Positions 6,060 through 52,078 of a DNA stretch of 64,000 nucleotides are shown here, piece by piece. The DNA comes from Psococerastis gibbosa. Taxonomy: Eukaryota; Arthropoda; Insecta; Psocodea; Psocidae. The translations under genes and the position numbers were made by a program. The notes under the pieces are model-generated. The model worked only from the letters and a program-made list of their open reading frames with translations, did no database searches and was not told the origin of the DNA. Each line of letters starts with the position of its first letter. The stretch's first letter is position 1. Location of the stretch: contig OZ020487.1 in NCBI GenBank assembly GCA_963971405.1, positions 40,149,039 through 40,213,038 on the forward strand. Direction: 5' to 3'.

Positions 6060-6113
6060 TAAAAGTTTGTTTGTTTGTTTGTTTACTTTGGTTTGCTTGT
6101 AAACAAATTAAAA

Positions 6114-21100: not shown

Positions 21101-24100
21101 ATTAAAAGTGCCAGCTAAATATTGAGTTACATGTAAGCAAGTTTTAAATGAAAAATTTTGATTTTCGATTTGAAAATTCGTTAGGTAAGAAAAAGATACT
21201 AAGCACTGTACAGGAGAAATTAGAAGGCGAGAATCTAACACTGCCCGGAAGTTAATTTTAATTGGAAAATACAAGAAACGCCAGATATCCGCGCCTACTT
21301 TTGATTTTCAGTGACTATGGGGACATGTCGCCTGTAGTAGTAGTAATTTTTGAAGTCCTTTTTAGAAACCTAAGCCAACTTATGGTGTGGCCCATAGGTC
21401 CCTTGTCCAATGCCAACGACCCCATGGATTTCGGACATTATTTGTATTGTATCCGAATGAATTTTTGGCCATTGGTAAACTGGTATACGTTCTCGATGTC
21501 AACCTACACCGGCTACAAGCGCTAATGGACCAGCTGAGACAAGCTTTCCATTGACGCAATGAAACAGGCGAAAGAATGATTAAACCAAGTATGAATACAT
21601 GTCTGTAGTAAATAAATACTCGGACTGAACACTTCATTTCTATGGTACCTTGAGAGTTTGCTGGGTTGGCAGGAGTAAAATTGGTTTGCGCAGGTCTCTG
21701 CGTCATTTGGTGCGTGGCGGGGGACTCGTCGTCCTCAGAGAGATCAATGACATCAGCGACAGCGTTGACTGACGGTGCCGGCGTCAGTGGAGGCATAGTA
21801 ATCAACTGTAAACAAAATTAAAATAATAATGCTGCAGTCTGGCAACGAGGTACAAGTCAACTTATTCCTGGTTAATGAGGTTAATAATGTAAACAGAACA
21901 ATTTTTAGAATAGCTCTTTGCATTATAAAAACCTTTTGTTTAGGAATAAGTTAAGTTGGTACCTCTTTCTCGGGCTGTAGATGCGTTAACTTAGTAAACA
22001 GGGAACATGGAAAGAGAGGCTGAGCCCACGTTACCTCCTTTTCTTTCTTTATTAATGGTAATATTTATGTACAGTCTTTAATAGAAGCCCCATGACATAC
22101 AATATATTGCAACAGTCAGTCAACAGAACTAAAAGAGCCAGCGTGTTCTTTCGCAAAAAGTATAGGCTCTACATGGTACTTATTATTCGATTTTATAAGT
22201 TTGGTCACCCTACTTTCTAACCTAATCAGATCTAATGAGTATCATTTATTATGGTTGACGAGCTTTTTCATGGACGAAGGCCTACAAGCGTTGTGTTCCG
22301 TTTAACCTTCGCCTGCCAACATTAGTTTTCGGACATTAATGCAGTGCCGGATTAACCCATGGGCACTTGGGGCACGGGCCCCCCCCCCCCCAGAAATGCC
22401 AAAAATTCCGGCCCCCCCAGAATGAGATTATTTTAATATAAAAATATTAGAAATTAAAAGTTTTGAAATAGAAAGTAAAAATTGAAAGTAAACCCCCACT
22501 ATTTCAGCCCTATTTTTCAAACATTTTCTCCCGGGAGAGACCCTCGGCCCCCCTGTTCCCAATTAAATATATTAATTCTCTGTAATTTATAAACCTTATT
22601 CCTCTCAAAATGCGTAGAATCCCAATATTTCAGACCTATTTTTCAAAAACTTTTACCTGAAGCAGACCTCCGGGCCCCACTAGTTCACAATTATATTAAT
22701 TATAAAATATATAAACCTTAAATTTATTGCATTCAAAATGTGTAAAACCTCAATATTTCAGCCTTATTTTTCAGAAATTTTCACCCGTGGGAGACCCCCG
22801 GCCCACACCCTTGTTAGCAATTATTTCAGGTCTGTTTTCACTAAATTTCTCCCGCGTGGGAGACCCCCCGGTCCCCCTACATATCCTGTGACCCGAACTA
22901 AAGTCATTAATTTAAAAGCTGCATACGTCCATGAGAACGGCTTTCCCCATTTATACACTTTTATGGAAATGGGTGAAGGGGCGCCAAATTATACACCGCC
23001 CACTTTGAAAACCTATCGTTACGGCACTGGCAAATACCTCCCCCTTTTATGAAGTCTGGGACCGCCTCGTCCGCCTCTGGTTTGCACCCACGCCCCCCCC
23101 CCCCCCCAGGGGTTAATCCGGCACTGCATTAATAGCATTGTTTCCAAATTAATTTCTAGCCATAGACTAACTGGTTCACGCCTCAATGTCAACCCAAACC
23201 GACTACAAGTGCTAATGGGCAAGCTCAGACATTATTATTGGCATTAGCTCGACTTAACCAAGTTCAGGAACGAGTTAATCTAAGGAGTAAATATGAGTAG
23301 CTATTAATCCATTACTCTGTGTTTACTATTTTTGCTTTGTTAATTATGTATATAGTATATACTATGTGCATTGCAATTTAATTATTAAGTGCTTAGTTTT
23401 CAGTAGTTTTTATTAACATTGACTTAGACATGCTATTAATGTATTTCATCTCAGGGACATTGCCCTTGTCCTGAAGTAATATACAATAATATAATAATAA
23501 AGTATGCAATTGAAGGAAAGACTTACTGACGCTGGAGACTGTCTTTGGGTGGCAGATGGCGCCTGATTAGGTTTTGGAGTGTTGGGTGTTTTCACAACAA
23601 GCACAGAAGTGGTGGCAGGTTTTGCAACTGACTTTGGAGTGCTGGGCTGCTTTACAACTGGCTTCGGAGTGGTGGGTGGCTTTACAACTGGATTCGGAGT
23701 GGTGGGTGGCTTTGGAGTGTTTTGTGGTTTTGCCAATTTCTTTGGAGCAGCAGTGGTGGCAGCCTTAGGTGGTGGGGGTCTTGTAGATTTAATTGCAATT
23801 GGTGGCTTTAATGGAGACCTCTGAACCTGAAATAAAAAAAAGCATCGTTGGTATTAATTATTAATTTATTATTCAAATGAACCATTTCGGAACATGCAAC
23901 CATGAAAATTACTTGGTTGTTGGTGCACCGCTAGTTTGAACTTTTGCCTATTCTATTGTCCATTAGTAATCATGCGCAGATATAAATTGAATTGAGCACT
24001 TATGCACCAATTAATGGCGTCATTTCACAATGGGCTGTATTTAATTTTAAGTAATAAACAGACTATCAAATGCCTTGTTAAGGGTGGCTTACGCCTTTTA

Positions 24101-33100: not shown

Positions 33101-36100
33101 AACTGCATGGGGAGGAGCATTTAAAAACACTATAGACAAGTTAAATGTTATACAACGGAAAATCCTAAAAATTATACATAAGAAACCAAACACTTTTCCC
33201 ACAAGCACTTTGTTTGAATGAAATATCTAATACACTTAATGCTCAACAAATATTGGTGAAAGAATCTATTCTGCAGATATACAAAAATAAGAAATCGAAG
33301 GAAATAGTAAATCACAACCATACCACACGATATATACATACAAACACAACCATTAATACAAGTCAGACCCAAAACTACCTTAATACAGAGACAAACAGAA
33401 TTCATTGGATTACATTTCTACAACAAACTTCCCCTTGAGATTAAAACAGCTAAAAATGTATCAATCTTTAAAAGAAATTTAGAGAAATGGCTGCGAACAG
33501 AAATTAATTACTAACAAACATTACTAATTGAATTAACTATCTACTGATAGAACTAACCTGATTTGATTAGTACTACTAACCAATAATAATTATTTAACTA
33601 CTGTATTGTATTGCGATTGAATTACATGTACTGTATATCCTAAAGCGAAACCGCACACGGGCTGACTGAAGCCTTGCGGTATATGATTTTATTGTATCAA
33701 TATAATGTATTGTGTTGGATCAATATAATATAATAATAATAATAATATAGTCTCCTTAAAATATGGCAGAGACTTATAAATGATGTCTGCTACCAAGTCA
33801 AGCACATTCACATTGAAAAACGACGTCGGTGGAATAGCCGCCTATGAACAATGAATACTGAATATGGCATAGTGCAGAAAAACGACAGGCCGCCAAAGAA
33901 CTTACCCAGATACCAATCAGAGGCAGAATTTAGGTTAACAACGGGTCATGACTACCTTCAAAAACAGCTGCCCTCTGTGGGACACCCCGGAAGAAATGAA
34001 GAGAGAACCCCTTAAGACGTGCCCTGCTCTCGTTAATAGCAGAGATTCACCAGATTATGTGTTGTATTTGCTACAAGAAAGCTGATGGCGGAAGCCTAAT
34101 ACTAAGGCATAATTTATTTTAAAAAAGAAAAAAGAATGATAGGCAATCTTTGGTCTTGAACTCAGATTCATCATAGTTTCTTCAAACGATTGCAAGAATT
34201 TTATGGACGACTAGTTGAAGAAAAGACTACCTGGTAAATATAGCCTATCTACTCGGTTAGCCGATGAAATGGATATAGTCACTAACCTGAGTCCGACATC
34301 GAACTAGGGTCATCCTCATCCTCGTCGTCCGAAGTCGTTAGCACACGCTGAGTTTCAGTGGGACCCTTCTTCATTGATGATGATGATGACGATGATGATG
34401 ATGATCTATTTGAGGAACTACACGAGGCCCTAACTCTGCTTTCTGAACTTGCATTACTTTCGTCTTCAGCATTACTTTCATTTGAATCACCAACTGCCCT
34501 GTCAGTCGTACGACTTGAGTGTTCAGAATCTTCACTATCATTTTTACAATCATTTCCATCAGTATCATCATTTGTCAAGCCTCCCTTCTCATCACAAGTC
34601 CCGTCAGCATTGGTAGGGTTGTTTTCAACAGCATCTGGTGAACTTTCCTTAGACGGTAGAGGATCTTGTCTAATAGAAGAATCATGAGAATCACAAGTCC
34701 CGTCAGCATTGGTAGGGTTGTTTTCAACAGCATCTGGTGAACTTTCCTTGGACGGTAGAGGATCTTGTCTAACAGAAGAACCATTAGGAGCACTATCCTG
34801 TTGCAAACTTTTTGACACATCTTGAATATTATCAACAACCTCAATGCGTATGGCAGCACTTTGCTCAGTCAGTGATTTTCCAGAATTCACTTGGACGTCA
34901 TCATCACACGAAATCTCGGGAGGTTCAACTTCTGCGTGACTAACACCTCTTTTTACATCTCCTTCCTCTAGTTCATTGTCTACTTGCCCTTGATCCATAG
35001 CAGAATCGTCCAGGTTATTCTGTGAAACTCGCTTCACAGCGGGCTCGTCATCGTGTTCTTTTGCTGGCCTCTTGCCTAACATAGATGGTACTGACGATTC
35101 CGATGACTTTAATCCATTAGTACCTGAGGTTTCCATTCTATCTGATAGTTCATCACATGCTTTTGGTGTCTCTCCATTAGTACCTGGGGTTTCCATTCCA
35201 TCGGATAGGTCATCACATGCTTTTGGTGTCTCTCCATTAGTATCCGAGGTTTCCATTTTATCTGAATGTTCATCACATGCTTCTGGTGTCTCTCCATTAG
35301 TACCTGACGTTTCCATTCCATCGGGTAGTTCATCACATGCTTTTGGTGTCTCGCCAGTAGTATCCGAGGTTTCCATTCCATCGGATTGTTCATCACATGC
35401 TTTTGGTGTCTCTCCATTAGTACCCGAGGTTTCCATTCCATCGGATAGTTCATCACATGCTTTTGGTGTCTCGCCAGTAGTATCCGAGGTTTCCATTCTA
35501 TATGATTGTTCATCACATGCTTTTGGTGTCTCTCCATTAGTACCCGAGGTTTCCATTCTATCTGATTGTTCATCACATGCTTTTGGTGCCTCTTCTCCAA
35601 GTGTTTCAGATTTAGCTACATCAGGAGGATTTTCATTACACAGACTATGCCCGGGTAAAATTGGTATATCTTCTTCTTCTTTAACACCAAGTGAATTCGT
35701 TTCAGTCTCAATTTTTATGTCTATATCGTTGGTAATAACGGGTTTGCAGTAATCGTATAATGGCGCGTCTGAATTAATATCTTCGACAAGGTGACTGACT
35801 GAAGATGACTCCCTAATATGAAGAGGGTTTGTTTCCACAGAGCACTGTTTAGTCGACAAATTCAACGATTCCTTGTTATCGGTATCTTCAAGCTCACTGA
35901 GTTCTCGACTTATATCATTAAGTGTTACTTCCTCTCCAGCAACATCGGCGTTTTCTAAAATCTCATCATTTCTAATAGTAGGATCTAACTTATTATGAAT
36001 TGTTGGGGCTCCTTGTTCACTTAAACTTCTTTCTTCAATTTGAGCTACAGTAATAAGCGCCTCAGTTTCAGGCACTACCAATTCCTTCTTCATTTCAATA

Positions 36101-36507
36101 ACAAGCCCATGGGGGCAGGATGTATCACGATCATTATGACCAGTTGTATTATTTTTTAGATTCACAACGCTATCATTTTCTGCATGGCCTTCAGTGCTTA
36201 CATTGTTAGGAGAACTATTCATATCACGTTCATTACTGGTATTCAGTAGAGAATTAATACTACTTCCAGATTTAGCTATTTTAGAATTCAATAAATTAAT
36301 ATCAGGTTTCTCGTCTTCTTCGTCTACCAAAGTGTCGCTCAGGAAAGCCGGGTCATTTACTTGGACTTCTTGAGAATTGGAGATAGAAGACCCGTTATGC
36401 AGGGACACGCCTCCAATATTTTCTTCGTGGCTGCTCAGCCCATTAGGGTTGGCACCGATTATGGGCGTTTTCAAGTCGCTTATTTCCACAGGAGAGGACA
36501 TGATCAT
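14863..36507 (-). CDS. ATF7IP: ATF7IP/MCAF1/windei-like chromatin cofactor, 11 coding exons
   Basis: ATF7IP-family proteins (windei in Drosophila) act in the nucleus. They bind and stabilise the H3K9 methyltransferase SETDB1/Eggless and link it to SUMO and methyl-DNA readers. Exons in transcript order: 34287-36507, 28137-28261, 27190-27296, 26095-26242, 24249-24308, 23527-23826, 21649-21805, 20719-20756, 19051-19221, 18170-18320, 14863-15131. All have GT-AG borders and compatible phases; the sum is 3747 bp, or 1248 residues, close to human ATF7IP. Order of parts: acidic Ser/Asp/Glu-rich region with coding repeats (1-740), basic KRPAKEHDDEPAVKR cluster just after the repeats, predicted coiled coil (about 783-850), Pro/Thr-rich linker (888-987), VIDLS SUMO-interacting motif (1006-1010), and fibronectin type III domain (about 1150-1246). 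The last contains KALPLPMACTLTQFV, which is highly characteristic of the family. Introns are full of mobile elements. The 5' UTR exon and promoter were not found. Confidence 0.92.
15230..15448. mobile_element. CTGGCCATTCACGAGG palindromic MITE, copy 1
   Basis: Inverted arms CTGGCCATTCACGAGGACTC and complement, then GCCAAATGGCGC. It lies 99 bp upstream of the last exon acceptor of the ATF7IP-like gene. Confidence 0.87.
15530..16337. mobile_element. Terminal-inverted-repeat element carrying a LINE fragment
   Basis: About 75-80-bp arms (15530-15610 and 16256-16337) share TTTTGTAAAC, GACGAAA and TTGCTCGTT in inverted orientation. The interior holds the minus-strand LINE 3' end and no transposase. 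Confidence 0.7.
15842..16235 (-). mobile_element. RTE-like LINE 3' fragment, second family
   Basis: The minus strand encodes, with frameshifts, a degraded IYGRWRIRHN-like region, LGHVQRMESDL, RPIGRPRRRWREQ and AENRAKWRRIV. It ends near LGLNAPS. It lies inside a larger terminal-inverted-repeat element (15530-16337). Confidence 0.75.
16533..16768. mobile_element. Palindromic MITE in the ATF7IP-like last intron
   Basis: Ends GGCGGCTATTCCACCGGCC and GGCCGGTGGAATAGCCGCC, flanked by TTA on both sides. The core GCAGACATCATTAATAAT arm is partly deleted. Confidence 0.9.
17085..17285. repeat. Interspersed repeat (CTGGTATACGTTCTCGATGT), copy 1
   Basis: Shared with 21399-21605: CTGGTATACGTTCTCGATGT, CACCGGCTACAAGCG, CAATGAAACAGGCGAAAG. 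Shorter relatives at 13130-13215 and 23140-23282. Confidence 0.8.
17517..17663 (+). mobile_element. 147-bp RTE-like LINE 3' end with 14-bp target duplication
   Basis: Matches the last about 147 bp of the LINE at 39303-40393, from the GRPRNRW region to GAGCCAGAAGAAG. It is bounded by AATAGCGATGAGAT at 17503-17516 and 17664-17677. It lies in the last intron of the ATF7IP-like gene. Confidence 0.9.
17846..18169 (-). pseudogene. Two degenerate tandem copies of ATF7IP-like exon 10
   Basis: A unit of about 154-170 bp repeats three times. Copy 2 (donor at 17999/18000) keeps RPPWPTFKITIIASG and a good gtaagcc donor but has a long C-run and no strong acceptor. Copy 3 keeps TLKISIVAS but its donor is lost (tcatgtttc). 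The intact copy is the exon at 18170-18320. Confidence 0.85.
18170..18320 (-). CDS. ATF7IP: ATF7IP-like exon 10 (complete copy of a triplicated exon)
   Basis: Acceptor ggtgcgcag, donor GCGTCAG|gtaagcc, phase 0 to 1. Encodes a proline-rich lead-in then RPPRPTLKITIIASG, which joins GIVLSW of the last exon to start the fibronectin III domain. Two diverged partial copies lie downstream in the transcript at about 17846-18165. Confidence 0.88.
18775..18965 (-). pseudogene. Tc1/mariner transposase C-terminal remnant
   Basis: The minus strand encodes LDYELWSVLKTKICSKRH, then LKKSLIPTPAEIPQ and, after a frameshift, AAIAAWPSDL: the end of a mariner-group catalytic domain. It sits just past the donor of ATF7IP-like exon 9, in the intron. 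Confidence 0.75.
19051..19221 (-). CDS. ATF7IP: ATF7IP-like exon 9
   Basis: Begins NQGNRVAYLLPTSQV and ends RGPALPPG in phase 0 at GGG|gttagt. Reading past the donor soon meets a stop, then a mariner-like remnant, so the intron boundary is needed. Confidence 0.82.
19581..19915. mobile_element. Inverted-repeat MITE in an ATF7IP-like intron
   Basis: Arms of about 85 bp: ATTAGGGGTATTCACTGAAT, TTTCTACGGTAGAAAAATAA and their complements. Confidence 0.85.
19916..20718. other. ATF7IP-like intron, nothing recognised
   Basis: Intron between exons 8 and 9; low-complexity T/A tracts only. Confidence 0.5.
20719..20756 (-). CDS. ATF7IP: ATF7IP-like exon 8 (38-bp microexon)
   Basis: Encodes GKILQVLTTSAAQ across the phase-1 junction. 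Acceptor tttttccag, donor CAG|gtaagc. Found by frame continuity; its length restores phase 0 for the next exon. Confidence 0.78.
20757..21398. other. ATF7IP-like intron, nothing recognised
   Basis: Part of the intron between exons 7 and 8, before the repeat at 21399. Confidence 0.5.
21399..21605. repeat. Interspersed repeat, copy 2
   Basis: About 85-90% like 17085-17285 by eye. It lies just downstream of ATF7IP-like exon 7 in the transcript. Confidence 0.82.
21649..21805 (-). CDS. ATF7IP: ATF7IP-like exon 7 with SUMO-interacting motif
   Basis: Contains VADVIDLSEDDESP, a hydrophobic VIDLS core followed by acidic residues, the usual form of a SUMO-interacting motif; ATF7IP family members have one in this area. 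Acceptor tttacag, donor CAAG|gtacca, phase 0 to 1. Confidence 0.86.
21806..22333. other. ATF7IP-like intron, nothing recognised
   Basis: Ordinary AT-rich intron sequence up to the hAT-like element. Confidence 0.5.
22342..23126. mobile_element. hAT-like non-autonomous element with internal C-rich repeats
   Basis: Ends CAGTGCCGGATTAACCC and GGGTTAATCCGGCACTG lie between CATTAATG and CATTAATA (8 bp, one mismatch). The interior has four diverged units with TATTTCAGCCC and GGGAGACCC motifs, each about 95-120 bp. It lies in an intron of the ATF7IP-like gene. Confidence 0.82.
23527..23826 (-). CDS. ATF7IP: ATF7IP-like exon 6 (Pro/Thr repeat linker)
   Basis: Exactly 100 codons in phase 0 at both ends. 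Encodes imperfect repeats of the type KPPTTPKPVVK, a flexible linker. The Gly/Phe/Val-rich open frames on the opposite strand are shadows of this repeat. Confidence 0.86.
24249..24308 (-). CDS. ATF7IP: ATF7IP-like exon 5 (60-bp microexon)
   Basis: Twenty codons, KIDRATAAALKSTSSTSPEK, between acceptor ttttacag and donor AAG|gtatgt. Both ends are in phase 0, so it could be skipped without a frameshift. Confidence 0.78.
24309..24745. other. ATF7IP-like intron, nothing recognised
   Basis: The open frame spanning exon 5 on the other strand is not supported. Confidence 0.5.
24746..24900. mobile_element. Palindromic MITE in an ATF7IP-like intron
   Basis: Near-perfect hairpin: CCGACCTCGTTTTGCATAAT and complement, ends GGTGGAATTT and AATTTCCGCC, with ACGTGGTAGTAGACATT at the centre. 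Confidence 0.9.
25193..25574. mobile_element. Nested palindromic MITE, outer element, locus 1
   Basis: Outer arms GACCGGCTAGGGCTATTTCC and complement with GACGTGGTAGCAGACATTC and its complement. The inner element at 25265-25502 sits exactly at the centre of the palindrome. Confidence 0.9.
25265..25502. mobile_element. Inner MITE of nested palindrome, locus 1
   Basis: Ends GGTGGCGTTTCCACCGACC and complement, with TA at both junctions. The loop contains AATGGCGTCATGGGATATGT, shared with locus 2. Confidence 0.9.
25615..25913. mobile_element. Possible hAT-like MITE
   Basis: CAGGGGTTCTCAAATGGT at the left and TTCTTGAGAACACCAGG at the right are roughly inverted. No clear target duplication. Contains 'ggagcca' motifs also seen at 13810-13850. 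Confidence 0.4.
26095..26242 (-). CDS. ATF7IP: ATF7IP-like exon 4 (coiled-coil end)
   Basis: Continues the helix as WKERYLANRKQMNELAVVIQ, then moves into a region rich in Val, Arg and Ser. Acceptor atttgcag, donor AAT|gtaagt, phase 2 to 0. Confidence 0.87.
26243..26739. other. ATF7IP-like intron, nothing recognised
   Basis: Short frames only, without motifs. Confidence 0.5.
26740..26935 (+). mobile_element. tRNA-derived SINE, copy 2
   Basis: Same family as 8455-8635: GACATGTAGAG, GGTTCGAGTCCCACAC and GCGGTCTCGGGCCTTCCTAG. It lies in an intron of the ATF7IP-like gene. Confidence 0.82.
27190..27296 (-). CDS. ATF7IP: ATF7IP-like exon 3 (coiled-coil start)
   Basis: Encodes a charged helical segment beginning DLEELMVQKLCECI and ending LRRRCQNLEIEVDK. 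Acceptor ttttgttag, donor GATAA|gtaagt, phase 0 to 2. This position matches the SETDB1-binding region of the family; that role is inferred from family knowledge. Confidence 0.85.
27589..27970. mobile_element. Nested palindromic MITE, outer element, locus 2
   Basis: Ends GGCGGGGTTTCCACCGACCG and CGGTGGAAACCCCGCC, with TAGGGCTAAATA and GACGTGGTAGCAGACATTC arms. Same arrangement as 25193-25574. Confidence 0.9.
27660..27899. mobile_element. Inner MITE of nested palindrome, locus 2
   Basis: Starts GGCGGGGTTTCCACTGACC, ends AACACCGCC (right arm slightly deleted). Interior nearly the same as at locus 1. Confidence 0.88.
28068..28103. repeat. Solo right end of the same MITE family
   Basis: TTAGCCCTAGCCGGTCGGTG then GAAACCCCGCC, a lone terminus 15 bp past the triple nest and 33 bp from exon 2. 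Confidence 0.8.
28137..28261 (-). CDS. ATF7IP: ATF7IP-like exon 2
   Basis: Encodes a Ser/Asp-rich stretch followed by KAPKTPVPVLSRLRKGSLKG. It enters in phase 1 and leaves in phase 0 at ACA|gtaaga. A second AG lies 6 bases inside (ttggtttag then tttcag), so splicing could remove two residues without a frameshift. Intron 1 upstream is about 6 kb and carries the LINE at 28.6-33.7 kb. Confidence 0.82.
28366..28470. repeat. GC-rich palindromic repeat, second locus (reverse of 61880-61985)
   Basis: ACAAGCGG, GCCTGCCGCGGGCGGCAGCT and CGGCCTTCGGC align with the reverse complement of the 61.9-kb repeat. The unit GGGCGGCAGCTCGGCC occurs twice. It replaces the left end of the split MITE. Confidence 0.7.
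28481..28586. mobile_element. Left half of a palindromic MITE split by the LINE
   Basis: Carries TTTTTCAATGTGAATGTGC and the GCAGACATCATTAATAAG core found in other copies. It stops at GTATCTACA, where other copies continue TAATAGTCTCC. The outermost terminus is missing, next to the GC-rich repeat at 28366-28470. Confidence 0.85.
28848..29662 (+). repeat. Interspersed repeat (GGTCCGAGTTTACTC ... CAGACAG ... ACCTCAAAACGTG), full-length copy
   Basis: Starts CTGGTCCGAGTTTACTC, then a G-run, TGACGTCACTGGAGGTGAGG, a block with ATTTCATCATAATCGACCGA, a CAGA microsatellite and TTTCGTAAAAACCACTTTTT, ending TGTAAATCCGTTGAAATC. No coding capacity. Inserted in LINE ORF1. Confidence 0.85.
31181..31559. 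mobile_element. Fold-back element inserted in the LINE
   Basis: Flanked by a perfect 12-bp duplication CCATGGATGACA (31169-31180 and 31560-31571); removing it rejoins the LINE frame. The arms contain GGCCGTGGTCGAATTGAAAG and its complement. A related fragment is at 12340-12440. Confidence 0.85.
33747..33843. mobile_element. Right half of the split palindromic MITE
   Basis: Resumes ATAGTCTCCTTAAAA, then GATGTCTGCTACCAAGTC, GCACATTCACATTGAAAAAC and the terminus GGTGGAATAGCCGCC, matching the left half 5.2 kb away. Confidence 0.87.
33844..34286. other. ATF7IP-like intron 1 start, nothing recognised
   Basis: Sequence between the split MITE and the donor of exon 1. Confidence 0.5.
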
Positions 36508-36520
36508 CACATCTAGTTTC
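34287..36520 (-). CDS. ATF7IP: ATF7IP-like exon 1 (first coding): acidic repeat-rich N-terminus
   Basis: The exon begins at a splice acceptor (tttgtttcag, boundary 36520/36521), so at least one non-coding exon lies further upstream. The first ATG is at 36507, and the exon ends at a CAG|gttagt donor in phase 1. It encodes 740 residues of low-complexity acidic sequence with no recognisable fold. Contents: eight 20-residue repeats, a basic KRPAKEHDDEPAVKR cluster, a 33-residue tandem duplication, a serine run and a DDEDEDDPSS tail. The long open frame on the minus strand and the clean splice sites support it; other-frame ORFs here are shadows of the repeats. Confidence 0.9.
34582..34779 (-). repeat. 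Tandem 99-bp coding duplication in ATF7IP-like exon 1
   Basis: Two adjacent 33-residue units share RQDPLPSKESSPDAVENNP and the following NADGTCD. They differ at only a few bases, which indicates a recent duplication that kept the reading frame. Confidence 0.93.
35116..35595 (-). repeat. Eight in-frame 60-bp repeats in ATF7IP-like exon 1
   Basis: Eight consecutive 20-residue units of the form GETPKACDE..D.METS.TN occupy about residues 305-464. Units alternate between SGTN and SDTT endings over part of the array, pointing to a 120-bp higher-order period and duplication of unit pairs. Confidence 0.95.
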
Positions 36521-37900: not shown

Positions 37901-37940
<40 letters not shown>

Positions 37941-39205: not shown

Positions 39206-39302
39206 AAAGGGCATCAATGCGGATACGTCGCAAACACGATCGTAGGGTGTCATAAAATAAAAAACATGTTCATCCTAGTTTTAGTATACAGTATGTGGCC
39301 GT

Positions 39303-40393
39303 GGATTTTAGACAGGCTTTCGATTCTATTTGGAAAGACAGCCTATATAACACAATGATCCGACAAGGAATACTAAAAAAACTAGTTAATCTAGTAAAAA
39401 TGACTATGGAAAACGCCAGAGCCAGTGTAATAATAGACGGACGATGTGGAGAAGAATTCCCACTCGGCAGAGGGGTACGACAAGGAGACGCCCTCTCAGC
39501 TACACTTTTCAACCTGGCACTGCAAGCAGCGTTACAGAATATAGTAGAGAGTGGGACAATTGTATACAAGTCACAAATGATCTGCGCATATGCGGATGAC
39601 ATAGTCATAATCACTAAAAATGGGAAGCAACTAGGAGAGATACTTGCTAGACTATGTGTAGAGGCGAGTAGAGCTGGACTAGAAATAAATGTCTCAAAAA
39701 CTAAGTATCTAGTAATGTCAGCGTTAGAAAGGAGACGGAGAAGTGACAACCTGACTGTACAAGGAATGGCTTTCGAGAATGTAAAGAGCTTCATCTACCT
39801 TGGTGCAGAAGTAAACAATCACAACAAAACTAGCGCAGAGATAGACAGAAGAATAACAGCAGCCAATAGAGCATATTTTGCCAACCTAAAATTGCTCAAG
39901 TCAAGACTTATCTCTAGAGCCACAAAACTACGAATATACAAAACCCTTATAAGACCAGTTGCAACATACGGATCGGAAACCTGGAATCTCACTGTAAACG
40001 ATGCCAAAAAACTACGTGTACTCGAAAGAAAGATAATAAGGAGGATATATGGACCCCTTTACGAGTACGGAGAATGGCGTATAAGAAACAACGCTGAAAT
40101 CGACGCCGCTCTCAACGGAGAAGACATAGTAAGGTTCATTAAAGCACAACGATTAAGGTGGCTGGGACACGTTGTAAGGATGTCTGAAGAACGCATGCCA
40201 CGAAAAATGTACAAAGCAAGCATGACGGGAAGACGACTGCCAGGACGGCCAAGAAACCGCTGGAAGGACGAGTTAGAGAATGACCTTCGCGAGTTGGGAG
40301 TCTCCAGATGGTGGAGCGTTGTGCAAAACCGAGAAGAATGGAGGAGTGTTGTCGAGCAGGCCAAAGCCCACCAAGGGCTGTAGAGCCGGAAGA
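39303..40393 (+). mobile_element. 5'-truncated RTE-like LINE with 13-bp target duplication
   Basis: Flanked by a perfect 13-bp duplication AGTATGTGGCCGT (39290-39302 and 40394-40406). The frame is open from the insertion edge to a stop at 40381-40383. RT motifs: FRQAFDSIWKDSLY, GVRQGDALSATLFN and the catalytic YADDIV. The C-terminal part has ERKIIRRIYGP, RLRWLGHVVRM, GRPRNRWKDELENDL and a final AKAHQGL, the usual end of this LINE group. Endonuclease and N-terminal RT are absent because of 5' truncation. The 3' end is GAGCCGGAAGAAG. The same family left a fragment at 17517-17663. Confidence 0.93.
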
Positions 40394-42807: not shown

Positions 42808-44705
42808 ACTATCATGCAAGGAAGACGGCAGTTCAAGGTAAGTCAGTTTAGTCAGAGTGCGACAACTCCTACGTCAATATGACGTAACAGTGGGCGGTTC
42901 GAAACTGAGCGACAAAGAACCGAAGATCTCCGGAAATTTCCGAGGGTCAATAAAGTTCACTTTGTAACCTAACCATGTTACAGCATTTTTATTTTCTAGA
43001 AAACGTATAAATTAATATAAAATTACATAAAAACCGAAAATAAACTTAACGATATGAAATAAACGGTTTTTAACTTTAGAAAACACAAGGGCCATAGGCC
43101 TAAGTGTTGAAATAATAATGCTTCGAAGTCAATGTCACTCACCAATTACAGCAGCAACTAGGCAATTCAAACCCAATCTCGAAGATGAGGAAATCAATGC
43201 CTGTACTTTAAATAACTACGTAGTACGAACATATGCATTTTAGTATCAATATAACACTAATTTAGTGCAAAGTGCAAACAGCACAAGATTATTGCGTCAT
43301 GTTCCCAGTTCCCACCTCAGAGCCACAAAATGGACGATAATGGGTGGAAGCGCAAGATAAGAAGACAACTTTTCACATTGGTTTCCTATGGCGGCTTAAT
43401 CTTATAACCACCGCGGGCTGTAAACCATTAGCAATATGGCGGTTAGTTGGATTGCACAAGATAAGTACGCAATTTCGCTATATGAAGAGTCTACACAAGC
43501 TAAGTAACGAGTTATGACAGGGTCTAGGTATCCATTTTGCTACGCTGCAATGATTAAGACCCCGTCGGGATATGGAGTACTTGCGTAGTGACGTCACATG
43601 ATCACCAATAATTTTTTTGTCCGAAAGTTACATAAGCAAAACACAAGCAGCAACCAATAGTTGTCCGATGACGTCTACATTGACTCCATGTATAGCATCC
43701 TTGTTGGATTTACCTGCGCAAGAACTCCATTATGGCTCTTTCTATTATATTTAATTTAATTTCTCTGATTGTAACAAAAGAGGCCGTCATATTGAAATTA
43801 TAGAAGATGTGCATATTTCAGGGTCAATATTAATATGGTAGGCCTACTGAAGTACAGCAGAAGTATAGGCTATAGCCTATGTACCTGAATAATTGAAAGA
43901 TATGGCAGGCACCTGTAAAGCACGCCTATCTCCAAGATAACACTATCGGACTAATGGCGAACGCGCCCTTTGTTTGGTTCCAAATAAACAAAAGCAATAT
44001 TTCAAAATAATTCCCTAAAAATATTAGATGGTGTAATTTCGCAAGAGTAAATACAGTCGAATTGCAACTGAAATTTAAGCACTTCGGCCTATCTATACTT
44101 ATCATATCAGATATGTTCAGATGCCTATTACGAAAACACTATCGGAGTCGGACGTCACGAGATATATCACGAACATTAATCAGCAACTGAAGCCAGAGGG
44201 GGGTCGGGAGGTTACGTGTCGTTACGAGGTCCGTGAAGTTACCTCACCTCCGGTGACGTCACATGGACCCCCTCAAAAACATTTCTGGCTACGGCCCTGC
44301 TTACAATTACAACATTAGTAGTAAACGCACGCCTAATTTAAGGGAAAATGAAAAGGCAACTGTTTCGGAGCTTTTACCGAAGCGAAGGTGAGAAGGTACT
44401 AAGACCAGAGCTTCGAAAGTATTTGTAAGGAATACTAGACGGCACTTATATCTACCAATGCACAGCGGTGTCATGCAGTAATCCTTAACGAGACTTTCAA
44501 GCGATGGTGGGAACAGCCCTAAGATGTAAAGCTATTTTTAACTAATGATCTTGAACAAGCATGAAAGCAATTTCGGAAACATCTTGCCAGTCCATCATCG
44601 ATTAGATATGAAACGGTGAACGTCATCAAAAAGTTGTGCTGTGTATGTAGCAGAAGCAATCACTAACTTATCTCAATCATAGATGATAATGATGATGTCA
44701 CTAAT
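42808..44705. other. Mostly unassigned
   Basis: Apart from the 43395-43558 repeat, only a reverse fragment of the GGTCCGAG family at 44222-44290 (GTTACCTCACCTCCGGTGAC). Confidence 0.45.
43395..43558. repeat. Direct relative of 42300-42470
   Basis: Shares GCACAAGATAA.TACGCAATT and GGGTC.AGGTATCC with the inside of the hAT-like element. Confidence 0.6.
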
Positions 44706-45080
44706 TGTTGCGGCGAGCGCATGTAAGGTGAGGTAATTACAAATTATGAATAAAGATAAAGATTTCGATATAAGCTATATTTGAACAAAGAAATGATCAA
44801 GTGAGTAAACCATGAGACGACCGCGCGTGGACTGACTTGTATTTTTCTAATTCTATAAAGTACAAACTTAAACCTAGAGGGGTGCGTTATAAGAGGGGTG
44901 AGCCTGACCCTCATTCGGCCACCCGGAATTCATACCTCCGCGTCGCTGTACCTATTGTCTGTTGTTGAGGGCCAACGGGCCTCAACAGTCAACACAGTAC
45001 ATGGGGTGCCGTAAGCTCAACATTGAATACGTTGCCGGGGCCACCCTGATGCGTTGTAGGGGCCGCACCAGGCCCCAACA
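44706..45080 (-). repeat. BEL/Pao LTR (3' LTR by element polarity)
   Basis: 375 bp; read on the minus strand it starts TGTTGGGGCC and ends CGCCGCAACA. It looks identical to the copy at 50612-50986. Confidence 0.96.
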
Positions 45081-45235
45081 ATCTGCCCCCCTTGGAAGGA
45101 GGCAGGACTTCCAACATAAAAACCATGAAAAGAAAATTTGAGCAAACGACACCCCGAACATGACAAGTACATAAACGAACGAGATAAAACACGGTGACAC
45201 AAAGGACATTTGTTCATAATGATGAAAAAAAACAC
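45017..45235 (-). CDS. Short Cys-rich frame beside the BEL polypurine tract
   Basis: A 72-residue frame containing CPLCHRVLSRSFMYLSCSGC, two CxxC pairs 14 residues apart, like half of a zinc-binding fold. It lies on the minus strand between copy A of the inverted repeat and the LTR. It could be a relic of Gag or an accessory frame. No function assigned. Confidence 0.3.
   Translation of the reverse strand: MFFFIIMNKCPLCHRVLSRSFMYLSCSGCRLLKFSFHGFYVGSPASFQGGQIVGAWCGPYNASGWPRQRIQC
45081..45095 (-). promoter_or_regulatory. Polypurine tract
   Basis: Minus strand reads CCAAGGGGGGCAGAT immediately before TGTTGGGG of the LTR, the usual placement for plus-strand priming in BEL/Pao elements. Confidence 0.8.
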
Positions 45236-45340
45236 AAAAGCATAAACTAAAATGATAATACTAGGTTAAGGTAAAATATTTATTTCGAAGACCAACTGGG
45301 AGCGCGAATGTGAATAATAAACCACAAAACCAAAAAAAAA

Positions 45341-45543
45341 CGGGTACGACACGAAGTATGTCCCCAAGAGAACACAAGAAAACGATTATGACCCCGAGTT
45401 GATCTGCAAGGAAACACGAAAACATGAGGTTGACTACACAGGTTGAGACGTTATTTTTACTTGGTTAGGGCACCGATTGTGCACGTGAAAAATTAGACGT
45501 TAGTGGAGAAGAACACCGAGCGTGTCAACTCCAACAACAAAAC
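45341..45543. repeat. 203-bp inverted repeat, copy A (BEL element)
   Basis: Perfect reverse complement of 50045-50247. It leads directly into the pol frame on the plus strand and is preceded by nine A residues. Confidence 0.97.
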
Positions 45544-48500
45544 AGCTATAGTCAACGTCGCAGCCAGAGATGGAACGCCAGTCAAGTTTCGGGCCCTACT
45601 GGACAGCGGAGCAACAACGTCCCTCGTCACCCGGGCAGCCATGCAAGCGCTCAAGGTGAAGCCGAGACCTACGTCACGCCGCATTATCGTCGCTGGGGGC
45701 GATGTCCAGGAGTGCGGGCAGGAAGTAGAGCTAACCATAAGTTCGAGGTTGGGTGAGTTTTCGACTAACCTGTTCTTCTTAACACTACCCACCATTTCAG
45801 GAAACATTCCCACCACTGAGGTCCGAGAGGAGTGGCCCCACTTGAGGGGGTTACCCCTGGCTGATCCGTCGTACGGCGTTCCTAGCAGGGTTGACATCTT
45901 GTTGGGAGCGGACGTTTTGCCTAATATTTTGTGTTCCGATATGATACGCATGCCAGGTGCGCCATGCGCTCAACGCACGCTGTTGGGGTGGGTGCTACAG
46001 GGACCAGTCGCGTTTGTCGGTACTGATACCATTCAAGGGCCGACCACTGGACCCAACACAACAACCACAGTGCTACACTGCACGGACTTCCTGCGTAGAT
46101 TCTGGGAAGTTGAGGAACTTCCATCAAGTCCAGTGTTGACAGAGGATGAGGAGAGAGCAGAAGAGAGCTTTCAAAACTCAACCTTTTGCGAGCCGTCTGG
46201 GCGGTTTTGTGTTCGTTTACCAGTCCGCTGCCAGCCACCCAACCTAGGAGAGAGTCGTCGCATGGCCCTGGCTCGTCTTCAGGGTCTTGAGAGAAGGTTC
46301 GCTAAGGATCGAGAGTTCCAGCTAAGGTACAATGAAGCCATCGACGATTTCCGTTTAGCTGGACATCTTGTGCCTTCAAACCCTAATCCAGCCGCTGTAT
46401 TCCTACCCCATCATGGCGTCATCAACGCGAAAGGAAAGCTTCGGGTGGTCTTCGACGCCAGTGCCAAGACCTCTAACGGAAGGAGCCTAAATAACGAGTT
46501 GCTGAATGGTCCTCGTACTCAAGACGAGCTCTTCGACATTATAATACGTTTCCGCTCAAGGGTTGTCGCAGTGTCGGCCGACATAATCAAAATGTATCGC
46601 CAAGTGAACGTCCACCCGTATGACCGTCACCTGCAGCGTATTCTCTGGCGCGAGTCAGCCAACGACCCTGTGCAGGAACTGGAATTAACAACTGTGACGT
46701 GGGGAACAAAATCTGCGGCATACCTAGCCACCCGGGTCCTGAAGGAAGTGGGGTTTCGGGCTAAAGAGTTCATGCCAGAAGCTGCCAATCGAATTCTACA
46801 GGACTTTTATGTGGACGATCTCCTGACTGGGGGGCAGACAGTCGGGGAAGTCCTGAAGTTAAGAAATCAAATAGCAGAACTTCTGGCCAACGCCGGGTTC
46901 GAATTGCATAAGTGGGCATCAAACTCACCTGCAGTGACGACTCCAGAGTCCAACGCAGTCATCGCTGCTGATGCGACTACTTTGGGGTTGAAGTGGGACA
47001 CAAATCGGGATGAGTTGTCTCTATTAACCGAACCGGTGAAGCCGCACGTCAAACCAACGAAAAGAACCGTCTTAAGTGACCTGGGCAGATTCTTCGATCC
47101 AATCGGCTGGGCCGCTCCGGTCTTATCCACGGCCAAGGTCTTTGTTCAGAAGCTCTGGGCCGACTCCACCTTGGGATGGGACACAGCTCTTCCTAGAAAC
47201 GCGGTCGAGCGCTGGTTGGAGCTGATGCAAGATGCAAGCTGTTTACGGCAGCTGTCCATTCCAAGGAATGTTTACCTCTCCGATGCCACCAGGAACACTT
47301 TATGCGGTTTCAGCGACGCGTCCGAAGAAGCATACGCAGCGGTGGTATATTTGCGGCAGGAGTGGGCTGATGGTACTTGCAGAATTAACTTCGTGGCCTG
47401 CAAGACGAAGGTCGCTCCATTAAAGCCATTAACCCTACCACGACTTGAACTTAGCGGAGCTGTCTTGTTAGCCAAATTGATGAGTAGGATCTCAAAGGCC
47501 GTCCTCTTTCGGCATGAGCAATTAGCCTTTACAGATTCAACCATCGTGTTATCTTGGCTCCGTGCTCATCCGAGCCGGTGGCAAACTTTCGTTGCGCACA
47601 GGGTACAGGCAATCCAGGAGTTCGTTCCTGCACGGGCATGGAGGCACGTACCTACCACAGACAATCCAGCGGACATCGCAACGCGTCGCTGTTCCTCAGC
47701 TGATTTGAAGCAAAGCAGCCTGTGGTGGCACGGCCCCGCATGGCTAGCGACCAACAGCTGGCCAGCAGATCTTCGCCTCACAGAAGATGCTCCAGAAGCA
47801 AGGGCTCCGAAGGTAATCTTCATTGTAACCGAAGGTTTCTTCCCTGTACTCACTCGATACGAGCGAATCTCCAAGACATTGCGGGTACTCGCTTATGTCC
47901 GTCGTGCCATCACTCCGAAGGCCAGACGTCCAATGGGTACGATTAGTGCACAGGAAATTATTACAGCCAGAATTACGATGATTCGCCTTATGCAACAAGA
48001 AACCTACGGTCAGGAGGTCAGGAGGCTAATTGTCAAACAGCCTGTTCTTCGGACTTCGGCGCTGTACAAGTTTAATCCATATTTGGACGATCACCAATTA
48101 CTACGGGTAGGTGGTAGGTTGGCCAATTCACAGCTCACCGAACCAACCAAGTACCCTATCATTCTGCCCTATAACCACCCGACGACGAAACTCATCGTGC
48201 GCCATCTGCATGTCCAGAACGAACACGCCGGTCCTCAACTGCTTGCTTCGATCGTCTTGCAAGGCTACTTCATTCCAAAACTGAGAAATATCACCCGTTT
48301 TGTGGCACGTACTTGTGCAATCTGTACCCGTCTGCGCGCCCGGGCTGTTGGTCAAATCATGGCTGACCTTCCGGCCAGCCGGGTCGCCCCTGTCTCGCGC
48401 CCCTTTCAGAGGTGCGGCGTAGATTTCGCTGGACCTGTCAGCCTGCGCACCCATCTCAGCAAGGGAACTCGCCATTACAAAGGTTACCTCTGTATCTTTA

Positions 48501-49471
48501 TCTGCATGGCAACAAGGGCACTACACCTCGAGTTAGCGTCAAGCCTCACCCCGGAGGCCTTTCTCTCTGCCTTCCATCGTTTATGTGCGCGTCGCTCAAC
48601 ACCGGCAGAGATGTTTAGCGATCGAGGAACCAATTTTACCGCCGCCTCCAAGATACTCAAGGAAGTATATGATTCGACTGCTGTCCAGGACACCCTGTCC
48701 ACAAGGGAAGTTCACTGGACCTTCAACCCTCCAGCAGCTCCACATTGGGGTGGTGTTTGGGAGGCTGGCGTGAAGTCTGTGAAGTTCCATTTGAATGCCG
48801 TCATCGGTACACATGTGTTAACCTTCGAGGAGATGACGACAGTCCTCTGCAGGGTCGAAGCCGTGCTCAATTCTCGACCGCTGGCACCCATTTCAAACGA
48901 AGTCTCGGATTTGGGAGCCTTGACTCCTGGACATTTTCTGGTTGGTGCGCCGCTCACAGCTCCCCCTGAGCGCATTGAGGAGGGAAAGATCCTACCTAAT
49001 CAACGCTGGCTGTTGGTCCAGAAGATGGCTCAAGACTTCTGGCGCCGATGGTCCAGGGAGTTCTTGACCCGTCTCAACCAAAGACCAAAGTGGTGTGCTC
49101 GTCAGACGCCACTGGCTGAAGGCGACCTTGTCATAATCAAGGAGGACAATCTCCATCCACTTCACTGGAGACTCGGCCGTATAAGTAAGCTGCACCTGTC
49201 TCCAGACAGCTTGCCTCGCGCGGCCACCGTGAAGACGCAGTTCGGAACTAGGGAACGACCCATTGTCCGACTGTGTAAGCTTCCCCTTGACGAAGGTTCA
49301 ACGTCAAAGAACCAACAGGACACCCCCACTGCTCAAGAAACGCCTGCAGTGCGTCCAGCCCCGGTGAGCTCCGCGAGCGCCGGTCCGACGCCTGCAGGAC
49401 CTCGGCGACGGAGCCAAAGGGTGGCCACCCGCATTGGAGCAGTGTCTTGCGTCACGCCCTGTGAGGACTAG
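45503..49471 (+). CDS. pol: BEL/Pao Pol polyprotein (protease, RT, RNase H, integrase)
   Basis: An uninterrupted 1322-codon frame. Order: aspartic protease with LLDSGATTSLVT (Asp34); reverse transcriptase with VFDASAKT, SADIIKMYRQV and the catalytic YVDDLLTGG (about 436-444); RNase H region with CGFSDASEEAYAAVVYL; integrase zinc finger His-His-Cys-Cys ending TCAICTR (about 899-945); integrase core DDE near CGVDFAGPV, FSDRGTNF and GGVWEAGVK (about 973, 1038, 1085); and the C-terminal HWRLGRI region typical of BEL/Pao (DUF5641). The frame starts after a stop nine bases upstream and has no ATG at its first codon (GTG), as expected for a gag-pol part cut from gag. It is opposite in strand to its own LTR signals. 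Confidence 0.95.
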   Translation: MEKNTERVNSNNKTAIVNVAARDGTPVKFRALLDSGATTSLVTRAAMQALKVKPRPTSRRIIVAGGDVQECGQEVELTISSRLGEFSTNLFFLTLPTISGNIPTTEVREEWPHLRGLPLADPSYGVPSRVDILLGADVLPNILCSDMIRMPGAPCAQRTLLGWVLQGPVAFVGTDTIQGPTTGPNTTTTVLHCTDFLRRFWEVEELPSSPVLTEDEERAEESFQNSTFCEPSGRFCVRLPVRCQPPNLGESRRMALARLQGLERRFAKDREFQLRYNEAIDDFRLAGHLVPSNPNPAAVFLPHHGVINAKGKLRVVFDASAKTSNGRSLNNELLNGPRTQDELFDIIIRFRSRVVAVSADIIKMYRQVNVHPYDRHLQRILWRESANDPVQELELTTVTWGTKSAAYLATRVLKEVGFRAKEFMPEAANRILQDFYVDDLLTGGQTVGEVLKLRNQIAELLANAGFELHKWASNSPAVTTPESNAVIAADATTLGLKWDTNRDELSLLTEPVKPHVKPTKRTVLSDLGRFFDPIGWAAPVLSTAKVFVQKLWADSTLGWDTALPRNAVERWLELMQDASCLRQLSIPRNVYLSDATRNTLCGFSDASEEAYAAVVYLRQEWADGTCRINFVACKTKVAPLKPLTLPRLELSGAVLLAKLMSRISKAVLFRHEQLAFTDSTIVLSWLRAHPSRWQTFVAHRVQAIQEFVPARAWRHVPTTDNPADIATRRCSSADLKQSSLWWHGPAWLATNSWPADLRLTEDAPEARAPKVIFIVTEGFFPVLTRYERISKTLRVLAYVRRAITPKARRPMGTISAQEIITARITMIRLMQQETYGQEVRRLIVKQPVLRTSALYKFNPYLDDHQLLRVGGRLANSQLTEPTKYPIILPYNHPTTKLIVRHLHVQNEHAGPQLLASIVLQGYFIPKLRNITRFVARTCAICTRLRARAVGQIMADLPASRVAPVSRPFQRCGVDFAGPVSLRTHLSKGTRHYKGYLCIFICMATRALHLELASSLTPEAFLSAFHRLCARRSTPAEMFSDRGTNFTAASKILKEVYDSTAVQDTLSTREVHWTFNPPAAPHWGGVWEAGVKSVKFHLNAVIGTHVLTFEEMTTVLCRVEAVLNSRPLAPISNEVSDLGALTPGHFLVGAPLTAPPERIEEGKILPNQRWLLVQKMAQDFWRRWSREFLTRLNQRPKWCARQTPLAEGDLVIIKEDNLHPLHWRLGRISKLHLSPDSLPRAATVKTQFGTRERPIVRLCKLPLDEGSTSKNQQDTPTAQETPAVRPAPVSSASAGPTPAGPRRRSQRVATRIGAVSCVTPCED

Positions 49472-50044
49472 GGGCTCATCTAGTCTCTCCGGGGGATCTT
49501 TGCCCCTCGTTAGCCAAAGACATCGCCATTAGTGTATAATCGTGTTTCACTATAGTTCATCGTTGTGTTAGTGTGTTTTGGAACCTCAACCCCTCCCCGT
49601 GTTACCCGTTGGCTCAACGGTTTTAACACGTAAGTGTCGTGTTTGTATTATTGTGTGGTTAACTGCGTATATGTACTCTTATTCAAGACGCTTCAGTACG
49701 TAAGTTGAGTTACTTTGTAAACCTATCATTATTTTAACCGTTTAAATTTTTGTGTATTGTGACTTACCTGGATACGTTACAAAATTCATGTACGTATGCT
49801 AGCTTTTGTGAAATGGCACCCTAATAGTGTCCATAGCCTTTGTGTTGATCCCCCTGGATCGTACCCGTTTTTTTTGTGTGTGTGATGTGATTCTTTCAGT
49901 GTCACAACCGTACCCGTCGTCTAAGAGGATCCCCCTGGATCATAACCCACCCGTTTTATGTTCATGTATGCACGTTATCGTGTTTTTTTGTGTTGGTATA
50001 TCACCCATTCTTGTATATAAGTTGGCTTACTCCTGGCCATAACC
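49472..50044 (+). other. Non-coding tail of the BEL inverted core
   Basis: 573 bp from the pol stop to inverted repeat copy B. T/G-rich, no gene seen. Contains two near repeats of ATCCCCCTGGATC (about 49848 and 49929) and several GTACCCGT motifs also present in the inverted repeat. Confidence 0.6.
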
Positions 50045-50246
50045 GTTTTGTTGTTGGAGTTGACACGCTCGGTGTTCTTCTCCACTAACGTCTAATTTTT
50101 CACGTGCACAATCGGTGCCCTAACCAAGTAAAAATAACGTCTCAACCTGTGTAGTCAACCTCATGTTTTCGTGTTTCCTTGCAGATCAACTCGGGGTCAT
50201 AATCGTTTTCTTGTGTTCTCTTGGGGACATACTTCGTGTCGTACCC

Positions 50247-50247
<1 letters not shown>
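50045..50247. repeat. 203-bp inverted repeat, copy B (BEL element)
   Basis: Continues the gag fragment on the minus strand. Next to it is a 31-base T run on the plus strand, matching the A run beside copy A. Confidence 0.97.
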
Positions 50248-50278
<31 letters not shown>

Positions 50279-50468
50279 CGTCCTCGGCCAACTTATCTGC
50301 TGCACATTGCAGCAAAATTGCCTTTTGGTTTTCAGCAATGTCCTTGTTTAACTCGACTACATGCTGTAACTGCCCGGCGAACTCAGTGGGATCAAACGTG
50401 TGTTTTTCATCCAGTATGAACTGAATTTGGCTTACAATAACTTCACGGCAGATGAGCAGCTCTTCCAT
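50142..50468 (-). CDS. BEL/Pao gag N-terminal fragment with lysine run
   Basis: ATG at 50468, 126 bp inside the primer-binding site. The 108 residues open MEELLICREVIVSQIQFIL, are helical and acidic, then run through lysines coded by a 31-base A-tract (50248-50278) into the inverted repeat and stop. It is much shorter than a normal Gag and lacks capsid and zinc knuckles, so gag is probably internally deleted at the A-tract. Confidence 0.65.
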
Positions 50469-50593
50469 CGTAACCACAACAACAACACAATAATTTGAAA
50501 TTTGACGTGAATAAACACTACACTAAAACATTACTGAAAAAACCCACCACAACCATAACAACTCGCCACACAAAACCACTATAACTAATAAAT

Positions 50594-50611
50594 CCGACTC
50601 TGTAAGGACCA
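50594..50611 (-). promoter_or_regulatory. Candidate primer-binding site
   Basis: Directly abutting the LTR, the minus strand reads TGGTCCTTACAGAGTCGG. The initial TGG is complementary to a tRNA CCA end. I could not assign the tRNA species. Confidence 0.75.
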
Positions 50612-50986
50612 TGTTGCGGCGAGCGCATGTAAGGTGAGGTAATTACAAATTATGAATAAAGATAAAGATTTCGATATAAGCTATATTTGAACAAAGAAAT
50701 GATCAAGTGAGTAAACCATGAGACGACCGCGCGTGGACTGACTTGTATTTTTCTAATTCTATAAAGTACAAACTTAAACCTAGAGGGGTGCGTTATAAGA
50801 GGGGTGAGCCTGACCCTCATTCGGCCACCCGGAATTCATACCTCCGCGTCGCTGTACCTATTGTCTGTTGTTGAGGGCCAACGGGCCTCAACAGTCAACA
50901 CAGTACATGGGGTGCCGTAAGCTCAACATTGAATACGTTGCCGGGGCCACCCTGATGCGTTGTAGGGGCCGCACCAGGCCCCAACA
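50612..50986 (-). repeat. BEL/Pao LTR (5' LTR by element polarity)
   Basis: 375 bp, matching the other LTR along its whole length, with the CTAAT target duplication immediately after it. Confidence 0.96.
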
Positions 50987-50991
50987 CTAAT

Positions 50992-51435
50992 TATGATGAT
51001 AATGAAGATGATAAAAATAAACAATAACTTGACCATAAGGCTGCCAAATTCACAGCCCCACTGACTAGATCCTCACAAGACTTAAACCTTCGTTTAAAAG
51101 TTCAGAATTGGCAGAAGTAATCGAAGCAGGTATTCACCGTTATACCTGCTCCTGTTCTATAAATAATAATAATAATATTTCATGTTCGAATATCTTATAA
51201 TTTATGAAATTACATTAGAACTTCAATTATCCGAATCAATTAGTTCGGGACCTCATTCGGATGATTCGAGTACGGTACTATACTGTAGTAAGGCAAATGA
51301 TTTTGACCTTGTCGGAAGAATTGACATTGTTCATGATTCCACTAATAGTGAAAACGTCTGGTCGGGCATGTGTATGGGAAAACGGGCCAAACCCTTAATG
51401 TGCTCTAAAGACCGTTTCGGGCAACTAAAAGTCTA
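50992..51435. other. Mostly unassigned
   Basis: AAT microsatellite near 51164; TTCAATTATCCGAATC at about 51221 recalls pogo-type DNA transposon ends, not enough to call. Confidence 0.4.
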
Positions 51436-52078
51436 CAACTGTGCTTATTGCACATCCCAGGTCCATAATTGCTAGGCGCCTCCAATATGCGCAGAACTCA
51501 TGCATGCGGTTCATTTACAATGTGAAACGGCGGGATCACATAACCCCATTCTACCGCAGGGCTCAGTGGCTGAAATTAGGTGAAAGAAGAACTTTCCACT
51601 CACTATTATTAGTATATAAGGTTTTGAACAGTGCAGCTCCTCCATATCTATATGACCGCCTAAAGCCAGTGAATTCCCATAGAAATGGACTTGTATTGCG
51701 AATACCCCGACATAACACAGCTTTATATGGTAGTTCTTTTTTGTAAATGTCTGCCGCCAGTGGAACTCCCTAGATAAGGAAATTAGATCGCAGCCAAAGA
51801 TTCGTGGGTTCAAAAGCCAGTTGCTGAAAAAATTACTAGGAACAGAATAGGTTTAGAATAAGAATACTGTCTAGATATTTACTGTATGTGTTTTTTTTTA
51901 CGTCACGTCACTTTAGAATAAGTTCTTTTTATGCATTGTCAGAATAAGATTGATTACGTTAAGCGTATGTATTTTGTAAATTGTATTGTTTTTGGACGTG
52001 GGTTAGGCAGAAAAAGACTTTCTAGTCTTAAGTCTCGCCCCGTGAATATAAGACGTTTATTATTATTATTATTATTTC
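51436..52078 (+). mobile_element. CR1/Jockey-like LINE 3' end
   Basis: Encodes RRLQYAQNSCMRFIYNVKRR, ERRTFHSLLLVYKVLN and, after a frameshift, WNSLDKEIR and a short FKSQLL end, the usual C-terminus after the RT of these LINEs. Ends in a TTA microsatellite at about 52053-52076. Confidence 0.82.

Follow-up and report, generated by a model that had tools for sequence, protein, structure and literature searches.

How does a retrotransposon come to carry its pol gene backwards between its own long terminal repeats (LTRs)? The question is raised by an element at positions 44706-50986 of a 64,000-nucleotide stretch of contig OZ020487.1, the whole of which is hereafter called the window and from whose first letter all positions are counted. 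The element is a single copy of the BEL/Pao group (family Belpaoviridae), in which the LTRs, the primer-binding site, the polypurine tract and a probable gag start lie on the minus strand and pol lies on the plus strand. A first-pass annotation regarded this form as one isomer of an invertible core. The explanation that we consider probable is that it represents one recent, defective copy in which two strand switches inverted pol together with the 3′ untranslated region (UTR) and deleted the core of gag. The event was probably a single copying accident, of a kind already known, and not a reversible switch.

Orientation of the LTRs, pol and gag

The 3′ LTR (44706..45080) and the 5′ LTR (50612..50986) of the minus-strand element start with TGTTG, end with CAACA and are identical over their whole length (375/375), and CTAAT, a 5-bp target-site duplication, is found on either flank (44701..44705 and 50987..50991). 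A pair of LTRs that agree at all 375 bases and have matching flanks needs no shuffle control. In element sense, a TGG-type primer-binding site, TGGTCCTTACAGAGTCGG (50594..50611, minus strand), directly follows the 5′ LTR, and the polypurine tract AAGGGGGGCAGAT (45081..45093, minus strand) lies just before the 3′ LTR, the first letters of which are TGTTGGGG. These signals share one orientation and are accompanied by a short target duplication, as in BEL/Pao elements, but gag and pol, which in these elements are co-oriented and usually form one open reading frame (ORF), are here represented by a probable gag remnant on the minus strand and by pol on the plus strand. The element is a rearranged BEL/Pao member, not a normal one. 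Given the identical LTRs, the insertion is very young; the first-pass annotation had also called the element young.

The pol ORF (45503..49471, plus strand) is open over 1322 codons. Peptidase_A17 (1.8e-43), DUF5641 (2e-30) and Asp_protease_2 were matched above their Pfam cut-offs and Integrase_H2C2 and gag-asp_proteas below their own cut-offs, and no match at 0.001 was obtained in this ORF for RVT_1, RNase H or an integrase core. Residues 1-500 of pol, used as a query, retrieved 1315 proteins, of which 120 were listed and used for all comparisons with relatives. All 120 matched the locus on the plus strand (tblastn, 44001-52000), and pol can be assigned to the BEL/Pao type by homology, from these relatives and from Peptidase_A17 and DUF5641. 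The closest listed relative, P0001, is 50% identical over pol residues 1-500; its residues 433-1730 align to 45539-49420 (52.7%), covering nearly the entire pol stretch, and the same protein contains PF03564, which we take to be DUF1759. A usual start codon is missing from the ORF, which begins with GTG within an inverted repeat and reaches its first internal ATG only at codon 47, past a DSG sequence that is presumably the protease motif. Homology extends from about 45542 to near the C-terminal end, and the first 13 of the 1322 codons are inverted-repeat sequence, not recognisable pol.

The probable gag remnant (50279..50468, minus strand) comprises about 63 codons from the start, and the capsid core is missing. 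Among 1204 ORFs in the window it ranked first against a profile of the gag N-terminus from 102 relatives, yet with an E-value of 0.32. Its best single score (51) was equalled or exceeded in 7 of 200 shuffles, and its mean profile score (26.9) was barely above that of the shuffles (25.5), 14 of 200 attaining it. At a loose cut-off, with six relatives tried, residues 29-85 of P0001 matched the remnant at an E-value of 0.63. The 120 relatives gave no tblastn match at 1e-5 on the minus strand of 44001-52000, and Pfam gave none at 0.001 on the minus-strand ORF, where a gag with a DUF1759 core was thus not found. In 109 of the 120 relatives, the protein extends at least 250 residues upstream of the corresponding point of pol, and in the 102 with at least 350 upstream residues the median is 451, against about 63 codons here. 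Relative to these proteins, roughly 340-390 residues of gag appear to have been lost.

Several claims of the first-pass annotation can be judged from these data. The reversal of pol relative to the LTRs, primer site, polypurine tract and probable gag start was borne out. The minus-strand gag start ranks first among the window ORFs, but with a high E-value and only about 63 codons left, and the pol described as intact has an open frame that begins with 13 codons of inverted-repeat sequence. It had also been proposed that flipping 45341-50247 would restore a normal gag-repeat-pol order. Because no gag core was found in the locus at 1e-5, inversion would not restore gag; roughly 340-390 residues would still be absent, and the repeat resembles 3′ UTR sequence (see below). 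An invertible core with a working gene order in one orientation is not supported, as the gag core, without a match at 1e-5, is absent either way, and none of the data show a flipping core.

The inverted repeat and the two joints

The arms of the inverted repeat (45332-45543 and 50045-50256) correspond without a mismatch over 212 bp, 9 of which are homopolymer; the 203 bp given earlier are the rest. A 23-nt word from the repeat, sought with up to 3 mismatches, occurs in the two arms only, against a mean of 0.00 occurrences in 100 shuffles, and the repeat is beyond chance. In either orientation of the core, one arm is an extra antisense copy. The right arm (50045..50256, plus strand; hereafter X′) extends, in pol sense, a T-rich stretch 3′ of pol (UTR1, 49472..50044, plus strand), and the left arm (45332..45543, minus strand) adjoins UTR2 (45081..45331, minus strand; 45% T in element sense), the 3′ untranslated part closest to the 3′ LTR.

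What X′ was in the ancestral element can be approached from the relatives. The tblastn matches start at 45542 in 97 of the 120, and the inner end of the repeat, 45543, is one base past this point; the repeat therefore cannot be recognised as the start of pol. The remaining matches start at 45536-45539 (5 relatives), at 45557-45602 (5) or 18 to 69 bases earlier, at 45473-45524 (13). In these last 13, only 48 of 175 columns agree with the repeat and a stop codon is crossed in three, and the early extensions were taken for chance. By these comparisons, the repeat is not recognisably gag or pol, nor the stretch that separates gag from pol in relatives.

X′ looks instead like 3′ untranslated sequence, to judge from its composition and a shared word. 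In pol sense, X′ contains 35.5% T and 19.7% A, and the 573 bases between pol and this arm contain 37.5% T and 20.6% A. X′ and UTR1 have the 17-nt word TCGTACCCGTTTTTTTT in common in the same sense, the last eight letters of which are a T run. Their same-sense alignment scored 34 (shuffle mean 20.2; 0 of 200 shuffles as high), and the opposite-sense alignment scored 15 (194 of 200 as high). No likeness was detected between X′ and the gag remnant or the leader (173 and 184 of 200 shuffles as high, respectively). Near the shared word, two copies of GATCCCCCTGGATC lie 81 bp apart after pol (49847-49941, plus strand). A special RNA fold of X′ was also considered and was rejected (z score, -0.02).

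On the minus strand, the left arm is a copy of X′ that leads into T9, UTR2, the polypurine tract and the 3′ LTR, and this order we propose to be the natural 3′ end of the element. The two arms can then be read as pol-UTR1-X′ and X′-T-UTR2-polypurine tract-LTR, both composed of normal 3′-end parts, so that only two joints, J1 and J2, are abnormal. A pol block bracketed by perfect inverted repeats is also what a separate transposon with terminal inverted repeats would leave on inserting into a BEL/Pao element. This origin was rejected as hardly credible: there is no target duplication around the block (A9 on one side and T31 on the other), the inner edge of the repeat cuts pol at the protease, and X′ resembles the sequence after pol.

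J1 (50278/50279) connects a T31 run (50248..50278; A31 on the element strand) to about codon 63 of gag and is located at a homopolymer. J2 (45543/45544), placed by the match starts of the relatives, connects the protease start to the inner end of X′. In the 10 nt beyond J2, the two sides are identical at six positions and differ at the others by transitions only. Among 200,000 random pairs, the frequency of no transversion over 10 nt was 0.00076 and that of at least six identities was 0.018. This transition pattern, as expected from imperfect pairing, is suggestive only, since it was spotted before being tested. The template switch at the A-tract that the first-pass annotation offered is a good candidate for J1, but two junctions exist; recombination between the arms, its other suggestion for the source of the present form, is possible.

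Routes to the present arrangement

A normal relative of the element would be arranged as LTR, primer site, gag-pol, 3′ UTR (UTR1, X′, T-tract and UTR2), polypurine tract and LTR. On the explanation that we favour, DNA synthesis would have changed strand twice in one round of reverse transcription. At one switch, the A/T tract of the 3′ UTR would have become linked to gag some 63 codons from its start, and at the other the start of the protease to the inner end of X′. As a result, protease-pol-UTR1-X′ would have been laid down backwards, the gag core lost and X′ left twice as an inverted repeat. In one of the two possible directions, the growing strand, having copied the primer site and the first codons of gag, would end in an A run. 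Pairing would then take place between this run and the T-tract in the 3′ UTR of a sense strand, X′, UTR1 and pol would be copied backwards as far as the protease start, and finally the strand would return to X′ and finish. The two abnormal joints suffice for this reading, which makes it parsimonious. The intact target duplication and the identical LTRs fit the integration of an already rearranged molecule; the order of the events and their timing, during reverse transcription and before integration, would follow from this scheme.

Several points weigh against this explanation. The natural order UTR1, X′, UTR2 was deduced with no intact copy of the family seen. X′ shows no likeness to UTR2 (164 of 200 shuffles as high in the same sense and 194 of 200 in the opposite sense), and the likeness between UTR1 and UTR2 is weak (35 of 200 shuffles as high). 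The leader beside the primer site is T-rich as well (47% in element sense), so composition alone cannot place X′. The weakest part of the anatomy is 50279-50468, which by position and rank is probably, not provably, gag. The unequal T-tracts (T31 and T9 at the two sides) call for slippage or expansion. In a review of template switching, the words inversion and inverted are absent from the main text (PMC3187697). Rearrangement after integration, moreover, would give identical joints.

In that last case, an element with pol in the normal orientation (either intact or with antisense X′ replacing the gag core) would have integrated and then been rearranged in the chromosome through template switching at replication, through break repair or through recombination of the 212-bp arms, which are perfect and could recombine. 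We regard this sequence of events as unlikely. Because the core could be flipped by recombination between the arms with both joints left as they are, the sequence cannot separate the two orders, being silent both on the first orientation and on the placement of the core in the assembly. In a 2026 paper on human T-cell leukaemia virus type 1c (HTLV-1c), both switching during reverse transcription and end joining are left open as sources of deletions (PMC13427564). Counting against rearrangement in the chromosome is that it demands one more step, or else a complex event within an insertion that is very young (no difference in 375 bp of LTR).

Identical arms and long homopolymers are difficult for short reads. 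Since the locus contains both, 212-bp identical arms and the T31 run, the assembly might have misoriented the 4.5-kb core between the arms or joined the arms wrongly. Such an artefact is rather improbable: misplacement of the core would account for its orientation only, and the surplus inverted X′ and the absence of the gag core persist either way.

A rearranged form may also have been mobile, as a non-autonomous family with a backwards pol copied in trans. The polypurine tract, the primer site and both LTRs appear undamaged and pol is still open, but no second copy was seen in the window, and this possibility is quite improbable. Seven pieces of the element had no further copies in the window at 1e-3 besides the known LTR and repeat pairs, and UTR2 had no match elsewhere in it at 1e-3. 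A 29-nt LTR word gave no match in viral_contigs, where none is expected and from which the genome of the window may have been left out; a 400-residue piece of pol gave two pattern matches there, neither of which was confirmed. Very improbable is a mobile family of ambisense BEL/Pao elements in which pol is reversed and the inverted 3′ UTR arms are retained because they allow strand switching in both directions during reverse transcription, either orientation being possible in each new copy. Were other copies with the same joints to exist, an LTR element moving with a backwards pol would be a real surprise. If the rearrangement was a one-off event, the locus is a clean and young record of the scrambling of an LTR element by DNA synthesis, holding two joints (one at a long homopolymer), a deletion, an inversion and an inverted duplication.

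Surroundings of the element and known systems

Elsewhere in the window, a fragment of a diphthamide synthase gene (DPH1) is located at 6111-7061 (plus strand; Diphthamide_syn, 9.2e-81). Among its 120 listed relatives, the closest from named species are thrips proteins (67-68%) and the best match overall is 75%, so that the host is probably an arthropod with no near relative among the named entries. A 742-codon ORF without a Pfam match (34282-36510, minus strand) contains a 60-bp unit eight times (35113-35593) and a 99-bp unit twice (34591-34784). A reverse transcriptase fragment that we take to be LINE-like lies at 39295-40383 (plus strand; RVT_1, 2.6e-22), with an A35 run (37905-37939) about 1.4 kb upstream, and short tandem arrays occupy 17872-18231 (170-bp units) and 22488-22804 (128-bp units). 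No tRNA genes or Rfam families were found in the window.

The element resembles the BEL/Pao elements of arthropods in its Peptidase_A17, DUF5641 and aspartic protease domains, its integrase zinc-binding domain (matched below the cut-off), its TGTTG...CAACA LTRs and its 5-bp duplication. It differs from them in that the gag core is missing, pol is backwards and a 212-bp inverted repeat without a convincing gag-pol match is present. No internal inversion of a BEL/Pao element was found among the listed titles and abstract openings on LTR elements, a small search with capped lists that is not evidence of absence.

Defective proviruses of human immunodeficiency virus type 1 (HIV-1) and HTLV-1 can likewise have an internal part inverted between the LTRs, together with a deletion, and the present element shows just such a reversed internal segment between intact LTRs. 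The inversions in these viruses are somatic copies in infected people, whereas ours was found in an arthropod assembly and has one joint at a long A/T tract. In HIV-1, an inversion and an inversion with a deletion of >1 kb were reported at 1.3% (n = 1) each (PMC9278108). Inverted proviruses made up 2.4 or 21% of the proviruses in a set of 693 amplicons, depending on the pipeline, and in a second dataset of the same paper none of the near-full-length proviruses was inverted (PMC8264403). The 2026 HTLV-1c paper, which does not settle on a mechanism, mentions an inversion class and reports that 58 of 185 deletion junctions have microhomology of 4-10 bp (PMC13427564).

Looser than the HIV-1 parallel is that with twin-primed insertions of long interspersed element 1 (L1), for which 5′ inversions with deletion and inverted poly(A) are described (PMC2837659). 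An inverted part, a deletion and a homopolymer at a joint are common to both, but L1 uses target-primed reverse transcription, whereas the present element has two identical LTRs and a 5-bp duplication. Looser still are the plant LTR elements Grande, RIRE2 and Retand, which carry additional ORFs antisense to the element (PMC7264820). There, the antisense ORF is an additional gene alongside a normally oriented gag-pol, whereas in the element described here it is pol itself that is reversed.

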